In this document: in pieces, positions 26,732 to 50,072 of the stretch
How positions within the stretch are numbered: the stretch's first letter is position 1
Layout of the letters: each line of letters starts with the position of its first letter
Assembly (NCBI GenBank): GCA_026990595.1
Contig: JALXCZ010000001.1
Location: 26,734-90,733 of the forward strand
Origin: Sulfurovum sp.
GTDB taxonomy: Bacteria > Campylobacterota > Campylobacteria > Campylobacterales > Sulfurovaceae
DNA length: 64,000 bases
Direction: 5' to 3'
The notes under the pieces: generated by a model
What the model saw: only the letters and a program-made list of their open reading frames with translations
What the model was told of the DNA's origin: nothing
Database searches by the model: none
Made by a program: the position numbers and the translations under genes

Positions 26732-27700
26732 CTACATATCTAAAGGACTAGCCACCCTTCCCTTGTTCATCTCAGCTACCACATGGGTATAGATCATAGT
26801 CGTTTCTACTGATTTGTGTCCCAACAACTCCTGAATGCTTCTAAGATCAATACCGCTTTGCAAAAGATGTGTAGCATAGGAGTGTCTAAATATGTGAGAA
26901 GTCACACGTTTGTGTACTTGTGCTTTTATGGCAGCCTGCTTAATGTTTCTGCCTAAAGTCTTTTCATGAATATGATGTCGTCTTATCACTTCACTTCTAG
27001 GGTCTTTGGCTACATTTTTCATAGGGAACAAGAACTGCCATTTGGTTTCAAATTTTGCATTAGGATATTTGCGTTCCAGTGCGTATGGCATATAGACACT
27101 TCCATATCCATCTGCTATATCTTTTTTATGAAGTTCCTCAACCACACCTGCTTGTACCTTTAGACGTTGTTTTATGACTTGTGGTAGTGGAACGGTTCTG
27201 TCTTTTAAACTCTTACTATCCCATATATAAACCTTGTCAAATCCAAAGTCTATATCTTTTATGCGTATGCTTAAAGCTTCACTCATACGAAGTCCGCAAC
27301 CGTACATAAGATATACTATAAGCTGATAGGTTCCCATAAGATTATCTATGACCTTTTTTACCTCTTCTTTGGTCAGTACCTGTGGGATGTGTTTTCTCTC
27401 TTGTGCTCTAAGTGCCTGAATGTTCCATTCACTCATATCTACCCCTAACACCTCTTTATATAAAAAGAGTAATGCAGAAAATGCTTGATTCTGTGTTGAT
27501 GGAGATACTTTTCTTTCAACTGCTAGATGCGTTAAGAATGCTTCTATCTCAGGTTTTGCCATCTCTATAGGATGTTTTTTGTTGTGGTAAAAAATGTAGT
27601 GTTTTATCCATCCGACATAAGACTTTTCAGTTTTTATACTGTAGTGCTTCACTCGTATTTTGTCACGAACGATATCGAGTAGTTTTTTCTTTATTTGCAT
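26732..27700 (-). CDS. intI: Integron integrase (tyrosine recombinase)
   Basis: Catalyses attI x attC recombination to insert and remove gene cassettes. Tyrosine recombinase residues are present: Arg138 in [20 protein letters not shown] and Tyr304 in TMIYTHV. The extra segment unique to IntI relative to XerC/D is present ([14 protein letters not shown], then [14 protein letters not shown]). I chose the ATG at 27700, which has a strong AAGGAGG site; the frame opens at 27754. It is intact, 322 aa, and faces away from the cassettes as integrons require. Distinguished from Xer by that insertion. Confidence 0.95.
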
Positions 27701-28017
27701 CTTTTCCTCCTTGTAATAGTAGGACAAATGTCCTCTATTGCTAGAAATCAACAATTAGAGGAACACTTTGTCCAAATAACGGCTTGTATCTGACTAAAAG
27801 GACATAAGCAATTTTTATAATTATAGGCTTTTTCAAAAGAAAGTAGTAAAAATCTTTCAAATTGTCATATTTTTAGCGATAGCAAGACATTTTTGATATA
27901 CTACTAATATGAAAAATAAGACAATAGTGGGACATTATGTTCCTCTAATAAATAGTTGTATACTCATGAGTAATAAATATGCTAAAATAACGAAATAAAT
28001 TACACACTGGAATCCAA
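27701..28017. promoter_or_regulatory. intI-cassette intergenic region
   Basis: AT-rich region that should contain the intI promoter and the cassette promoter Pc. It contains three copies of an 18-bp element of form GGACAnnnTGTTCCTCTA: forward 27722-27737 (two bases shorter), reverse 27756-27773 and forward 27930-27947. They may be integrase-binding or regulator sites. A TAAAAT at 27983-27988 could be the -10 for the first cassette gene. Confidence 0.5.
27930..27961 (+). other. attI site (inferred)
   Basis: The junction is placed at G27955^TTGTAT. The reason is that the first cassette ends with R'' ATACAAC at 29688-29694, whose inverted form GTTGTAT matches exactly the bases that should enter with that cassette. 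One 18-bp GGACA...CTCTA element ends eight bases upstream, like an integrase-binding repeat. Confidence 0.65.
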
Positions 28018-29259
28018 ATGGAACAATTAAATGTAAAAAAGTTTTTAATTATTAAAAATTCTAAATTTGATATTGGAAGAATTAATATTATTATTGGACC
28101 ACAAGCAAATGGTAAAAGTCTTTTAGTCAAGCTTTTGTATTTATTCAGAGAAACTATAAGTGAATCTTTTTTAATGTCTGTCAAAAATAATGAATTACAA
28201 AGTGCCTTTGTAAAACGTATTGAAACATCTTTTGAAAAATATTTTCCAAAATATACATGGAAAGATAAAGATATTGAAATCACTTATATTCGTGATAATA
28301 TAGAAATAAAAATTATAAAAACAGCATCTCAAAGAACAATAAAAATTGAATTATCAAAATTTATTACTACTTCTTTTACATCTCTTAAAAGTAATTATAG
28401 AAAATTTATGCGAGAGAAAGAAAAAGAAGATGAATATATATTTGATGATTTTTGGGAATTTAAAAATCAATTTATTGATAATAATAAAGAAATGTCAAGA
28501 TATTTTTCTGAATCAGTTTTTATTCCAGCAAGTAGATCTTTTTTTGCTAATTTGCAAAAAAATATTTTTTCTTTTTTAGCAGAAAATATTGATATTGATC
28601 CTTTTATGAAAGAATTTGGTTCAAAATATGAACTTGCAAAAAAGATTTATTCCGACACAAGATTTAATGAAAATATTTTTGAAAAAAATGATTCACATAT
28701 TAAAATTAAAAATATAGTTGAAAATATATTAAATGGTAAATATCAATATAAGAATAAACAAGATTGGATTGAATCTAAAGGTGAAGAAATAAATCTGGCA
28801 AATGCTTCTTCTGGACAACAAGAGTCACTTCCTATGCTATTGATTTTATCTATTTTTCCATTTTTAAATAAAGAAAATCAGAATATGTATTTTATTGAAG
28901 AGCCTGAAGCCCATTTATTTCCTACCTCTCAAAAACATATTATTTCTCTTATCGGTTTAATGTACAACTACAATCAAAATAATGTAATTACAACACATAG
29001 TCCTTATATCTTAACGGCATTAAATAATTTATTATTAGCTTATGATGTAAAACATGAAAAAGGTGAACAAGCAATAGAAAATATTATTGACAAAGAATTT
29101 TGCATAAATTATGAAGATATAAAAGCATATACTATATCTGATGGTAAACTGACTAGTATAATGGATAAAGAAGAAAGATTAATTGGCATGAATGTTATTG
29201 ACTCTGTATCGGAAGACTTTAGCACTACTTTTGATTCACTTCTCGCACTACAAGATTAA
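28018..29259 (+). CDS. ABC/OLD-like AAA ATPase (cassette 1, candidate defence ATPase)
   Basis: A 413-residue AAA_15/AAA_21-type ATPase. Walker A GPQANGKS is at 27-34, an ABC-signature-like SSGQQE at 264-269, Walker B MYFIEEPEAH at 290-299 and the switch His in TTHSPY near 327. The central region is a long, very Lys/Asn-rich helical insert, as in OLD/RecF-like proteins. Such ATPases occur in Gabija, Septu, PARIS and similar anti-phage systems, but no TOPRIM domain is fused. Very AT-rich compared with core genes, a sign of transfer. It is followed three bases later by a PD-(D/E)XK-like gene in the same integron cassette. Confidence 0.88.
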   Translation: MEQLNVKKFLIIKNSKFDIGRINIIIGPQANGKSLLVKLLYLFRETISESFLMSVKNNELQSAFVKRIETSFEKYFPKYTWKDKDIEITYIRDNIEIKIIKTASQRTIKIELSKFITTSFTSLKSNYRKFMREKEKEDEYIFDDFWEFKNQFIDNNKEMSRYFSESVFIPASRSFFANLQKNIFSFLAENIDIDPFMKEFGSKYELAKKIYSDTRFNENIFEKNDSHIKIKNIVENILNGKYQYKNKQDWIESKGEEINLANASSGQQESLPMLLILSIFPFLNKENQNMYFIEEPEAHLFPTSQKHIISLIGLMYNYNQNNVITTHSPYILTALNNLLLAYDVKHEKGEQAIENIIDKEFCINYEDIKAYTISDGKLTSIMDKEERLIGMNVIDSVSEDFSTTFDSLLALQD

Positions 29260-29261
29260 TC

Positions 29262-29684
29262 ATGATAAATAATTGTAATACATATACTAACAACAAATTA
29301 ATTTCAGTAAGTGAAAATAGAAGAATTTTCAAAATAATAAATACTTCTACTTTTTATGTTAATAAAGTTGTGGTTGATGATTGCTATATTAAAGTCGGAG
29401 AGAGATGTGATTATCTTTTTGAAATAATAAATAATAATACTGTTAAAAAAGTTTTTTATGTTGAACTCAAAGGAAGCAATATTACTCATGCAGTAGAACA
29501 ATTAAAAACAACTATTACGTACTGTAAAAGTATTCATAGTGCAGCTGTGTTAAAGCAGTGTTATATTGTTGCTTCCAAATTTCCAAGTGCTGGTCCTTCC
29601 TCTCAAGCATTAAAGAAAAAGTTTAAAAGAGAAAATAAAATACAACTTTTTATAGATACCAAAATAAAAGAAATTGCTATATAA
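29262..29684 (+). CDS. Small PD-(D/E)XK nuclease-like protein (cassette 1)
   Basis: A 140-residue protein with the core pattern of restriction-endonuclease-like folds: Asp50 in RCDYLFEI, a beta-hairpin, then Glu68-Leu-Lys70 in FYVELKG, then a helix with AxxQL. I do not recognise a named family and the nuclease call is inference from motif spacing. It starts two bases after the ATPase stop, so the two are translationally linked and together fill cassette 1. A toxin/effector nuclease controlled by the ATPase is a reasonable hypothesis. Confidence 0.75.
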   Translation: MINNCNTYTNNKLISVSENRRIFKIINTSTFYVNKVVVDDCYIKVGERCDYLFEIINNNTVKKVFYVELKGSNITHAVEQLKTTITYCKSIHSAAVLKQCYIVASKFPSAGPSSQALKKKFKRENKIQLFIDTKIKEIAI

Positions 29685-29687
29685 AAT

Positions 29688-29755
29688 ATACAACAAAACA
29701 TAGGAACACAATAAATTACCTAGCGGCAATTTATGGTTCTATTCAGTCGTTATAC
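29688..29755 (+). repeat. attC site 1
   Basis: R'' ATACAAC (29688-29694) and R' GTTATAC (29749-29755) bracket an imperfect palindrome centred on the loop ATTACCTAGCGGCAAT, with arms AGGAAC.. and ..GGTTCT. The recombination point is G29749^T. The loop is almost identical in attC sites 1-4. Confidence 0.85.
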
Positions 29756-29813
29756 AGCCACACAAACTTTCTTAAAATTTTACAATTTAATATAAAAATG
29801 ATATACTTCTTAT

Positions 29814-30077
29814 ATGAAATATGAATATGACAGTAACAAAAGCTTATCAAATAAGCAAAAACATGGTATTGATTTTGAAGAAGTAAAGCTTCTTTGGGAT
29901 GATGATAGAATGATTGAAATTTTAACATCTTACGAAGATGAAGAAAGATTTATCAATATTGGAAAAATTAGTAGCAAGTTTTACACTGTTGTGACAACTA
30001 TTCGTGAGAAAGAGAAGATTAGAATTATTTCTGCACGAAGAGCAAGAAAAAAGGAGATTGAACTTTATGAAAGCTGA
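29814..30077 (+). CDS. brnT: BrnT-family ribonuclease toxin (cassette 2)
   Basis: An 87-residue type II toxin with the BrnT hallmarks: KYEYDSNKS..NKQKHGIDF near the N-terminus and RIISARRARKKE near the C-terminus. BrnT is a RelE-fold RNase that blocks translation. A TATACT lies just upstream, so the cassette probably carries its own promoter. The antitoxin gene starts inside its 3' end (11-bp overlap); this toxin-first order is typical of brnTA. Confidence 0.92.
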   Translation: MKYEYDSNKSLSNKQKHGIDFEEVKLLWDDDRMIEILTSYEDEERFINIGKISSKFYTVVTTIREKEKIRIISARRARKKEIELYES

Positions 30078-30312
30078 AGAATTTGATAAAATATTTGATG
30101 ATAATGAAGAAGATATAATTGAATATCTTGATTTATCAACAATAAGAAGACCAAACTTAGAACCAAAAAGAATTAATATTGACTTTCCAACTTGGATGGT
30201 TAAAAAACTTGATGAAGAGGCACAACATATTGGAGTAAGTCGTCAAGCTATAATTAAAACTTGGTTAGCTGATAAACTTATGCAAAACGAACATCACAAA
30301 GTAGCTGTATAA
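30067..30312 (+). CDS. brnA: BrnA-family antitoxin (cassette 2)
   Basis: An antitoxin of about 81 residues. The acidic N-terminus (EEDIIEYLDLS) is followed by RRPNLEPKRINIDFP and a ribbon-helix-helix DNA-binding part with VKKLDEEAQHIGVSRQAIIKTWLADK. It binds BrnT and its own promoter. I use the ATG at 30067 because of its AAGGAG; the frame is open from 30004. The stop codon lies within attC site 2. Confidence 0.92.
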   Translation: MKAEEFDKIFDDNEEDIIEYLDLSTIRRPNLEPKRINIDFPTWMVKKLDEEAQHIGVSRQAIIKTWLADKLMQNEHHKVAV

Positions 30313-30374
30313 CAAAACAGCGTAGCCAATAAATTACCTAGCGGTAGCTTATTGGTTATCTTTGACCGTTATAC
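30307..30374 (+). repeat. attC site 2
   Basis: R'' GTATAAC (30307-30313) and R' GTTATAC (30368-30374) are exact inverse complements. The palindrome has the arms AGCCAATAAATTACC and GGTAGCTTATTGGTT. It overlaps the brnA stop codon. The cassette's incoming end (TTATAC at 29750) matches this R''. Confidence 0.87.
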
Positions 30375-30390
30375 CCAAAATCAAATATGC

Positions 30391-30396
30391 TATAAT
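30391..30396 (+). promoter_or_regulatory. Probable -10 box inside cassette 3
   Basis: GCTATAAT 22 bases before the antitoxin start at 30418. Cassette 3 therefore seems to be transcribed independently of the integron promoter. Confidence 0.5.
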
Positions 30397-30417
30397 ACAA
30401 GAAAAAAAGGAAAGTTC

Positions 30418-30606
30418 ATGGTAGCCGTAAAACAAGAAGCACAAGAGATGATACAAAACCTGCCTGATAACTGTACTTATGAAGATATTCAGTACCACCT
30501 TTATGTTGTAGAAAAAATAAAAAATGGCATTACTCGTGCAGAAAATGGTGAAGTATCATCACACCAAGATGCAAAAGCAAGAATGGCTAAATGGCTTTCA
30601 AACTAG
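30418..30606 (+). CDS. Antitoxin of a ParE/RelE-type pair (cassette 3)
   Basis: A 62-residue acidic protein resembling small antitoxins found before ParE toxins (DIQYHLYVVEKIKNGI helix, then GEVSSHQDAKARMAKWL). I use the ATG at 30418, which has an AAAGGAAAG site, not the more upstream frame opening. It overlaps the toxin gene by 16 bp. The exact antitoxin family is not certain. Confidence 0.8.
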   Translation: MVAVKQEAQEMIQNLPDNCTYEDIQYHLYVVEKIKNGITRAENGEVSSHQDAKARMAKWLSN

Positions 30607-30911
30607 CGTGGTCAGAAGAGGCACTTGAAGATATAGAATCTATCGCCACCTACATAGAAAAAGATTCCCCAACTTATGCAAAGTCAGTAGTTTCAAAGTT
30701 TTTTGAAAAAGCAGAAATCTTACAAGAATTTTCAGAACTAGGTAGAAAAGTTCCTGAGTTTAATGACTCAACAATTCGAGAAATTTTTGTTTACAGTTAC
30801 AGACTTATATATAAGCTGGAACAGCAAGATATTTTATTTGTAGCTGTAGTTCACGGTAAAAGACTTCTTGAAAATCATCATCAAAGTATAACAAATCAGA
30901 GTAGCCAATAA
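30591..30911 (+). CDS. ParE/RelE-family toxin (cassette 3)
   Basis: A 106-residue toxin with the ParE/RelE fold signature: WSEEALEDIESIATYIEKDSP, then GRKVPEF, then REIFVYSYRLIY and VVHGKRLL. ParE toxins inhibit gyrase, RelE toxins cut mRNA; which applies is not decidable here. The reading frame runs about 20 bases into attC site 3, so the last residues are encoded by the recombination site. Confidence 0.9.
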   Translation: MAFKLAWSEEALEDIESIATYIEKDSPTYAKSVVSKFFEKAEILQEFSELGRKVPEFNDSTIREIFVYSYRLIYKLEQQDILFVAVVHGKRLLENHHQSITNQSSQ

Positions 30912-30952
30912 ATTACCTAGCGGCAATTTATGGCTACCTGCAGTCGTTAGAT
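30886..30952 (+). repeat. attC site 3
   Basis: R'' GTATAAC (30886-30892), R' GTTAGAT (30946-30952), with the palindrome arms TAGCCAATAAATTACC and GGCAATTTATGGCTA. R'' matches the incoming end of its own cassette (TTATAC at 30369) and R' the next one, as expected for cassettes. Confidence 0.87.
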
Positions 30953-30980
30953 CACTATTGAAATATTACAGAAAATGTAG

Positions 30981-30986
30981 TATAAT
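30981..30986 (+). promoter_or_regulatory. Probable -10 box inside cassette 4
   Basis: TATAAT 20 bases before the ATG at 31007. Confidence 0.5.
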
Positions 30987-31006
30987 GTATCTACAAAAGG
31001 ATACAA

Positions 31007-31234
31007 ATGAAAAAAGCAATAAATATCCGTATGGATGAAACACTACTTACTGATTTAGACTCTTATGCTCAGGAACTTGAACGTTCTCGTACATATATTA
31101 TTGAGAAAGCTGTAAGTACATATTTTGATACATTAGATGAAATGATTTCAGACAAAAGAATTGATGAACTTAAAAGTGGAAAAACAGAAGTATATTCACT
31201 AGAAGAAGTGGCTAAAAAACTTGGACTTAACTAA
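31007..31234 (+). CDS. Ribbon-helix-helix antitoxin (RelB/CopG-like, cassette 4)
   Basis: A 75-residue antitoxin: the N-terminal RHH DNA-binding part (INIRMDETLLTDLDSYA..LERSRTYIIEKAV) is followed by an acidic toxin-binding tail. AAAGGAT precedes the ATG. Its TAA overlaps the toxin's ATG. It should repress its own promoter, a TATAAT at 30981. Confidence 0.9.
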   Translation: MKKAINIRMDETLLTDLDSYAQELERSRTYIIEKAVSTYFDTLDEMISDKRIDELKSGKTEVYSLEEVAKKLGLN

Positions 31235-31485
31235 TGTTTAGAGTTATAGTTCCAAAAGCTACTTTTAAAGAACTTGAAAAAATAGACTCTGTAAACCAAC
31301 AACTCATATTTACAAAAATCAAAGATTTAGAAGCAGGAATTTTTACTTCAGACAAAGCTCTTAAAGGCAAACACAAAGGTAAGTTTAGAAAAAGAGCAGG
31401 AAATTATAGAATAATATATTTGAAAGAGAATGATATTTTAGTGATTACACTCATTAGAATTGCACATAGAAAAGAAGTTTACTGA
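31234..31485 (+). CDS. RelE/ParE-family toxin (cassette 4)
   Basis: An 83-residue RelE-like mRNA interferase: short N-terminal strand and helix, then LKGKHKGKFRKRAGNYRIIY and VITLIRIAHRKEVY, the typical C-terminal strands and basic residues. Its start overlaps the antitoxin stop by one base. The stop lies a few bases before attC site 4. Confidence 0.92.
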   Translation: MFRVIVPKATFKELEKIDSVNQQLIFTKIKDLEAGIFTSDKALKGKHKGKFRKRAGNYRIIYLKENDILVITLIRIAHRKEVY

Positions 31486-31487
31486 AA

Positions 31488-31555
31488 GTCTAACAAAACA
31501 GAGGAGCCAATAAATTACCTAGCGGCAATTTATCGGCTATCTTCAGTCATTGCAT
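31488..31555 (+). repeat. attC site 4 (R' degenerate)
   Basis: R'' GTCTAAC (31488-31494) is normal and its inverse matches the incoming end of cassette 4 (TTAGAT) except the last base. At the expected R' position the sequence is ATTGCAT (31549-31555), with A replacing the invariant G of GTT. The palindrome around ATTACCTAGCGGCAAT is intact. Confidence 0.78.
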
Positions 31556-31810
31556 GCACCCGCGGAACGGGAGCGCACCCGTTGCAGAGTTGAACTATAA
31601 CATTAAGTTCGTTTTTCTTTTTTGCAGTCCTGTCTCTTTTTTAAAAAAAAGACGCAAAAACTCAGGAAAAAAGAGAACAAACTTTCTTGAAAATTTGAAT
31701 ATGCCTATTTTATCAATGGGTAAATTTAATGATACTATCTTCCACGTAAAGACAATAAATAGAAAAGAGAGTCAAAGCTCGTTTAAATTTTCAAATCATC
31801 AAAAAATTTG
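31556..31810. other. Leader of cassette 5: GC-rich patch and T/A-rich element
   Basis: A GC-rich patch (about 31556-31590) contains CCCGCGGAACGGG-type short palindromes and is unlike its AT-rich surroundings; it may be a fragment of another recombination site. It is followed by TTTTTCTTTTTT facing AAAAAAAAGACGCAAAAA (31610-31685), like the element at 14700-14760. A long open frame through here has no ribosome binding site and is not called. Confidence 0.35.
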
Positions 31811-31811
31811 T

Positions 31812-31817
31812 TATAAT
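31812..31817 (+). promoter_or_regulatory. Probable -10 box inside cassette 5
   Basis: TATAAT about 28 bases before the ATG at 31845. Confidence 0.5.
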
Positions 31818-31844
31818 GGTGATAAATTAAAAAAGGTCGAAAAA

Positions 31845-32078
31845 ATGCAATTGTCAATAGATTTAAAAACTAAAGATATTATTTCATTAATTTCACAAAT
31901 GTCTCTTAATGAACTTGAAAAAGTAAAAAATAGCTTAGTTGAAAGAGAGTTATATTTTAAAAAGTTTAAAAAAGACAATGTTGAAGATATTATAGATGAT
32001 TTCAAAAAAGAAAATTATTCGGATGACTTTTTAACTGATTTAGAAAAAGGGTTAAAAAAGAGTTCAATTTATAAATGA
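31845..32078 (+). CDS. Antitoxin of a RelE/YafQ-type pair (cassette 5)
   Basis: A 77-residue acidic/basic helical protein whose position and 4-bp overlap (ATGA) with the following toxin gene indicate an antitoxin. I choose the ATG at 31845 for its AAAAGG site and TATAAT upstream; the open frame begins at 31554. I do not recognise the antitoxin family. Confidence 0.75.
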   Translation: MQLSIDLKTKDIISLISQMSLNELEKVKNSLVERELYFKKFKKDNVEDIIDDFKKENYSDDFLTDLEKGLKKSSIYK

Positions 32079-49679: not shown

Positions 49680-50072
49680 TTATATATTTAGTAAATTACG
49701 TAACGGCAACAGCAACATACTGGCAAAAAATCCTACAAACCAAATCATGGCAGAGAGAATAAAAATGCGTTTATTCCATCTCTTGGCTCCTGCACAGGCA
49801 AGCGCCAGTTTAGGGTCTAAAGGACAACTCTGATTGGGTCGCCATATTATCCATGCTAGAAAAAGTAAAAATAAAAATGACAAAGAGAGTGTCCACATTT
49901 TATGCTCTGCTAAAAATGTTACACCAGGGATGTTGTAACTCATCGCTGCTGCTATTGAGCCAAATCCGAGCGTCACAAGAAAAATAGGTAAGGCACAACA
50001 CAACAAACTCCCTGATGTTAAAAAGAATGTTATCCAGCGCAGGTAGGGTTTATCTAAAAAATCTTTCATCAC
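49680..50072 (-). CDS. MerT-like metal transport membrane protein
   Basis: A 130-residue protein with three hydrophobic segments (about 10-35, 55-75, 100-122). A Cys-Cys pair in the first segment (LLCCALPIF) and Cys residues in NQSCPLDPKLALACAG resemble MerT-type mercury importers, but no merA gene is near, so the metal is unknown. Start overlaps the CopZ-like stop by four bases (ATGA). Confidence 0.78.
   Translation of the reverse strand: MMKDFLDKPYLRWITFFLTSGSLLCCALPIFLVTLGFGSIAAAMSYNIPGVTFLAEHKMWTLSLSFLFLLFLAWIIWRPNQSCPLDPKLALACAGAKRWNKRIFILSAMIWFVGFFASMLLLPLRNLLNI

Follow-up and report, generated by a model that had tools for sequence, protein, structure and literature searches.

The two adjacent genes at 28018-29684, here called A and B, form a real and conserved pair that is probably a defence system of an already known kind. 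Judged by its anatomy and key residues, and not by an alignment with the WonA and WonB sequences, the pair is a WonAB-type module. We consider it fairly probable that it acts by abortive infection, the ATPase sensing phage and licensing a docked nuclease to stop the cell. A role in defence is supported by matches to the PDC-M29 profiles, conservation of the pair, WonAB-like residues, predicted folds, covariation of the ATPase tail with the nuclease, patchy distribution and carriage by mobile elements. The window, that is the whole stretch of 64,000 nucleotides analysed, belongs to a 2.05 Mb genome in 52 contigs. The interest lies less in the pair itself than in its integron setting and in a set of chimera-like relatives: a candidate family, PDC-M29, is linked to a system of tested mechanism, and this type is shown in an integron cassette.

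The ATPase, the small predicted nuclease and their likeness to WonAB

Gene A (28018-29259, + strand) encodes an OLD/ABC-type ATPase of 413 aa. The initial annotation had described an ABC/OLD-like ATPase with a Walker A motif, SSGQQE, EEPEAH and a switch histidine; all were present, and key residues did not vary across the 74 aligned rows, of which the window is one. These are the Walker A motif GPQANGKS (residues 27-34, 28096-28119, +), with G27, G32, K33 and S34 invariant, the signature SSGQQE (residues 264-269, 28807-28824, +), the Walker B glutamates E294 and E295 of EEPEAH (28897-28902, +) and the switch (H-loop) histidine H327 (28996-28998, +). R173 was invariant as well. Pfam gave matches to AAA_15 and AAA_21 and a sub-threshold match to ABC_tran, and detected no TOPRIM domain in A. 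The predicted fold of A resembles those of PtuA and AriA.

Gene B (29262-29684, + strand) starts with an ATG two bases after the stop codon of A and encodes a small predicted PD-(D/E)XK nuclease of 140 aa. As proposed from the first reading, D50, E68 and K70 are in place, and they were invariant in the B alignment (80 rows, window included): D50 (29409-29411, +) is a predicted metal ligand and E68-L-K70 (29463-29471, +) the predicted catalytic ExK. The suggestion of a PD-(D/E)XK-like partner gains support from these residues and from a confident structure model (pLDDT 96.3, pTM 0.91), the predicted fold of which is similar to PD-(D/E)XK enzymes. Nucleases or nuclease-like proteins occupied nine of the ten best rows of a Foldseek comparison of the model with the PDB, in which no row reached E <= 0.001. 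The effector had been said to have neither a TOPRIM nor an HNH domain, and indeed neither was matched up to E 1 in Pfam, PADLOC or NCBIfam. We also observed that cysteines C41 and C49 of B are invariant and that C5 is kept in at least 90% of the 80 rows; among the 25 nearer rows, C100 reaches the same level. These cysteines may perhaps bind a metal or make up a redox-sensitive core.

In PADLOC, the best family of A was PDC-M29A (4.4e-22), followed by AriA (3e-21), and that of B was PDC-M29B (5e-10), so that both PDC-M29 profiles match in adjacent genes. Of five more B relatives that we scanned, four also matched PDC-M29B. PDC-M29 is a candidate name only, and we found no mention of it in the literature searched.

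The closest system with a tested mechanism is WonAB, a two-gene anti-phage system of a Vibrio WASA-1 prophage with experimentally shown activity (PMC12137116, which prints the accessions AWB73975.1/AWB73976.1). According to that report, WonA is an OLD-type ABC ATPase needing K34, R182, E300 and H333, and WonB a 16.1 kDa PD-(D/E)xK protein needing K71. The same text describes abortion of infection by a stop of translation that leaves genomic DNA intact, toxicity of WonB that requires WonA with a working ATPase, tRNA or rRNA as the target suspected by the authors, and an AlphaFold3 prediction that places WonB on WonA's dimerised C-terminal extensions. It further cites Krishnan et al. 2020 for an operon class of 'OLD-ABC ATPase + novel REase' and lists PD-T4-4 as a similar operon. 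The two pairs share the order of ATPase, then small PD-(D/E)xK protein. K33, R173, E295 and H327 of A are by motif and spacing the likely equivalents of the four WonA residues, and K70 of B (140 aa) that of K71 in the 16.1 kDa WonB. Docking on a C-terminal extension of the ATPase, as predicted for WonAB, may apply to A as well, on the indirect evidence of a tail that covaries and appears to recombine with B. The setting differs: WonAB is described as prophage-borne in Vibrio, whereas the pair of the window lies in an integron cassette in a different phylum. A Shewanella relative, P0204, 44% identical to A, carries K34 and R182 at the residue numbers given for WonA, with E302 and H335 two positions off; among the best 14 of 51 virus-contig ATPase loci, none has all four of these published numbers.

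The pair had been put forward as a possible undescribed defence system. In view of the PDC-M29 matches and of an anatomy and key residues like those of WonAB, we call it a WonAB-type module instead. An exact hit to a named system, which the initial annotation had set against its own proposal, exists at the level of the family (PDC-M29/WonAB type) and not at that of identical sequence.

WonAB and the ABC fold together suggest a fairly probable course of events. A would dimerise via its ABC motifs, and B would dock on the paired C-terminal tails. A phage trigger would cause an ATP-dependent change in A by which B is activated, and active B would then stop the infected cell, probably by cleavage of tRNA or rRNA. 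By analogy with WonAB, translation would cease after phage DNA replication begins and before capsid assembly.

A restriction-like module is the strongest competitor of this scheme, and we regard it as unlikely. Here A would sense foreign or modified DNA in the manner of Septu or of other ABC-nuclease systems, and B would degrade phage DNA, not RNA. The resemblance of the predicted fold of B to nucleases does not fix the substrate, and PtuA, to which the predicted fold of A is similar, has the HNH protein PtuB as its partner, whereas B has no HNH match. The closest tested system, moreover, spares genomic DNA and stops translation (PMC12137116).

Several named systems were also compared with the pair. 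PtuB of Septu is an HNH nuclease, and Septu (PtuA/PtuB) also serves as the effector of retron I-A; B differs from PtuB in this domain, and membership in Septu was discarded on the searches up to E 1 in Pfam, PADLOC and NCBIfam. Gabija combines the ATPase-TOPRIM protein GajA with the helicase GajB, whereas A has 413 aa without a TOPRIM domain and its partner is a protein of 140 aa and not a helicase. In PARIS, AriB is a TOPRIM tRNA nuclease (PMC12409363), whereas B has no TOPRIM match up to E 1 and carries ExK residues instead. For PD-T4-4, the PADLOC profile of the ATPase matches A (1.2e-14), but that of the nuclease had no match to B at E <= 1.

The integron and the borders of the cassette

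The claim that the pair travels as a single integron cassette was borne out in the window, where all three features of an integron cassette are present: an integrase, attC sites and a unit bounded by crossovers. The integrase gene IntI (26732-27754, - strand) matched TIGR02249 at 1.3e-124, above the cut-off; its coordinates are taken from a TTG start, and the ATG-start version begins further in. Our search for attC cores returned four sites downstream of IntI and a poorer fifth, against 0.00 on average in shuffled sequences. The fifth match (49690-49710) has three mismatches, lies 18 kb off the array and shows no evident paired arms by eye.

Between the integrase and the first cassette lies the attI-side intergenic region with the left crossover G27955|TT (27755-27955, no strand assigned), identified from an inverted repeat, from its folding and from the start of homology with a close relative, L009, at 27955. 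The repeat is imperfect, with 32-nt arms at 27754-27785 and 27918-27949 that are 75% complementary and 132 nt apart, and it covers most of the integrase-to-cassette region; it is perhaps an attI or integrase-control feature. As a single strand, the attI-side region folds far better than its shuffles (z -4.0).

Cassette 1 comprises A, B and attC1 over 1,794 bp (27956-29749, + strand), as delimited by complementarity at the junction and by the block common with L009. The left junction reads GTTGTATAC (27955-27963); eight of its nine bases complement the assigned R'' of attC1, ATATACAAC (29686-29694). We assigned attC1 by reading (29686-29755, +), with a core match at 29710-29730 and a bottom-strand fold of z -3.17; an arm-pairing script chose other bases for this site, 29688-29742, and in the window made a clean recovery for attC2 only. 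The core of attC2 (30328-30348, + strand, in a site at 30307-30374) has the arms GTATAAC/GTTATAC and a bottom-strand fold of z -1.86. Core matches likewise placed attC3 at 30907-30927 (+, z -4.56) and attC4 at 31509-31529 (+, z -3.45), again with folds of the bottom strand. The pair is strongly AT-rich, as had been noted: GC content over A and B is 21-27% (four 600-bp bins) versus 37-45% in six bins at 24.0-27.6 kb. Being the first cassette and adjoining attI would favour expression of the pair.

The region of cassettes 2-4 (29750-31560) carries one small toxin-antitoxin-like module per cassette. These are BrnT (1.6e-25) with a CopG-type partner (4.4e-5, below the cut-off), a ParE-type toxin (7.3e-17) with a small partner that had no match, and an RHH protein (1.2e-4) with a ParE-type toxin (1.8e-6). 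A 24-nt repeat (88%) occurs just ahead of cassette 1 (27894-27917) and again ahead of BrnT (29799-29822). Since a promoter-like site at 29779-29807 overlaps the latter copy, both may be cassette promoters. Past the last attC, a 174-aa ORF (31554-32078) has a GC content of about 25% and no Pfam family at E <= 0.001. An Rfam search gave two matches only, both sub-threshold.

These neighbours bring to mind a stability cassette of toxin-antitoxin type, in which B would be the toxin and A its neutraliser, and which would be kept as the three others are. B was also seen without A in no judgeable locus. Nevertheless we find this reading improbable, as A possesses a full and invariant ATPase apparatus and WonB is reported to be toxic only together with ATPase-active WonA (PMC12137116), which excludes simple sequestration for WonAB.

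In the passages on WonAB that we consulted, no integron is named as its setting. Defence cassettes borne by integrons are already known from work that PMC12409362 describes, including that of Darracq et al. 2025, and the lists in that literature may contain relatives of the pair.

Occurrence of the pair and its closest relative

L009, an independent contig, is 88.8% identical in nucleotides to the window over 27955-29686, and nothing else in it matches the window at E <= 1e-5. As the homology ends there, the common block is bounded by the left crossover base and by the first base of the assigned attC1. Identity was 90.3% in A and 84.5% in B, with dN/dS values of 0.042 and 0.169 respectively (NG86); such low values indicate that both are real genes under purifying selection. 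The L009 contig carries a Patescibacteria bin label, and a misbinned contig is likelier than a transfer to Patescibacteria. We found no attC downstream of the B gene of L009. Searches for the attC core of the window and for generic attC arms likewise revealed no convincing attC behind B in the other loci tested (27 in one round, 25 in another), although some long but weak hairpins came up. The left crossover of cassette 1 was common to L009 only among the other loci tested. The evidence for travel as a cassette thus comes from the window itself and, in L009, from the left border.

We then looked at the occurrence of the pair by a single pattern-based scan for B relatives in 84,980 species genomes. 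They were found at 27 loci, and a relative of A lay directly upstream on the same strand in all 27, with the provisos that several contigs begin inside A, that A is frame-broken in L024 and that B contains stop codons in L035. With start codons picked mechanically, the stop of A and the start of B overlap or lie at most 5 nt apart, as in translationally coupled genes. A survey of the family detected B in 9 of 175 genomes, the genome of the window included; its 12 places of B are the window, six of the 27 loci, four new ones with A upstream and one cut by a contig end. In the phylum, B was present in 12 of 397 genomes, again including that of the window, and A was upstream in all 12 of the new, distant places, the A gene of L103 being broken. 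Co-occurrence across genomes, which the initial annotation had named as a check, is conserved: outside the window, A lies directly upstream of B in 43 of 44 loci, and the 44th is cut by a contig end. In L021, L024 and L103 the ATPase frame is interrupted and B is open, owing either to assembly errors or to decay of the modules.

Virus contigs, plasmids and phages also yielded relatives. Searching virus contigs with A gave 51 loci, and in 12 of the best 14 an ELKG-type ORF comes right after A; L052-L054 are near copies, one A is truncated and one is followed by a different ORF. Adjacent relatives of A and B occur in one Muribaculaceae plasmid and in two gut phage records as well, the collections of phages and plasmids giving distant relatives only. 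The record titles of relatives name Campylobacterota, Desulfobacterota, methanotrophs, Chloroflexota and Bacteroidota; 369 genomes around the methanotroph relative held nothing beyond that relative.

Such a distribution bears on the last alternative, a non-defence role, for example in DNA repair or replication-fork processing by an ATPase-nuclease couple like Rad50/Mre11, which we hold to be very improbable: the pair is patchy within family and phylum, it occurs in an integron, on virus contigs, on a plasmid and in phage records, and the 413 aa of A would leave no room for the long arm of Rad50 type.

No signal of a defence island emerged from the surroundings of the pair. For 25 of the 27 loci we scanned the 86 ORFs that reach 90 aa and lie no more than 3.5 kb away; PADLOC matches at E <= 1e-10 were spread over 13 families with one or two ORFs each. 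Among the neighbouring ORFs, the 25 Pfam families listed out of 47 were mostly housekeeping.

The tail of the ATPase and its nuclease

The C-terminal extension of A (residues 331-413, 29008-29256, + strand) stands out by its covariation with B and by its co-inheritance with B in a group of chimera-like relatives. In five genome records, L010-L014, B is 52-58% identical to B of the window. The A proteins of L011-L014 are only 32-37% identical to A of the window, and the last 128 residues of A, available for L010, 49%. Residues 1-335 of L013/L014 show 49-59% identity to another set of loci, L044-L046, versus 28-32% to the window, L009 and L015, whereas residues 381-413 show 57-70% identity to the window, L009 and L015 versus 38-48% to L044-L046. 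B of L044-L046 is only 20-24% identical to B of L013/L014.

The best breakpoint in A of L011-L014 fell at residues 325-333, where the H-loop THSPYI lies, and its score was reached in 0 of 2000 permutations for each locus; L010 turns at the same place but is too short for the breakpoint test. In the comparison loci L016, L025 and L034 no breakpoint was detected, 203, 921 and 219 of 2000 permutations respectively reaching the score. For L023 the score was reached in 2 of 2000 permutations, but the breakpoint lay at residue 24 and left the rest of the protein, core included, on the side of the window.

Trees were built separately for these portions, those of the core and of tail plus B without four long-branched loci (L019, L025, L034 and L043). 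The ATPase-core tree rejects a grouping of L011-L014 with the window, L009 and L015 (p-AU 5.6e-9, in a test that does not allow for the groups having been named after the distances were seen). In the tail-plus-B tree, L010-L014 fall with the window, L009 and L015 into a starred group of eight rows (95/96), and grouping of L010-L014 with L044-L046 is not rejected there (p-AU 0.10). Nor was the grouping of L013/L014 (or L010-L014) with L044-L046 rejected in other tests on B, tail and tail-plus-B trees (p-AU 0.29, 0.12, 0.40 and 0.39), and the group that unites L013/L014 with the window in the 25-row tree of B was not starred (83/96). The case for an exchange thus consists of the rejection by the core tree, the starred eight-row group and the identities. 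Since tail plus B unites L010-L014 in a single group (100/99), one event may lie behind all five. By sequence comparison, A of L010-L014 looks like a natural chimera, with a core from another subfamily and the last ~80 residues, together with B, from the lineage of the window.

Covariation was analysed in 45 loci, the window and 44 others, from which L103, cut or broken A genes and copies had been left out. With the rest of A held constant, several segments of A had positive partial correlations with B, and residues 381-413 covaried with it most (partial correlation 0.39, next segment 0.29), a value reached in 0 of 300 permutations, which ignore shared ancestry. Together with the chimera-like relatives, this suggests that the tail is the dock of B and the core an exchangeable sensor. 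Extension 331-413 is accordingly the likely docking surface for B, and its covariation fits the AlphaFold3 prediction for WonAB in PMC12137116.

A more general proposal, to which we attach about even weight for and against, is that WonAB-type systems are plug-in immune modules in which the ABC sensor core is exchangeable and tail and nuclease constitute one inherited effector block, that in five Campylobacterota loci recombination at the H-loop placed a block of the window's type behind a core of another subfamily, and that the complete pair is also mobile as an integron cassette. If true, a lineage can gain a new trigger without changing the killer. With the same nuclease type behind different cores, the chimera-like relatives make the question of WonA-type sensing and signalling testable.

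Among the 20 nearer loci, segments 341-380 and 381-413 of A covary most with B (partial correlations 0.47 and 0.39, respectively), and an earlier version of the analysis with a different control left the leading segment unchanged (0.40).
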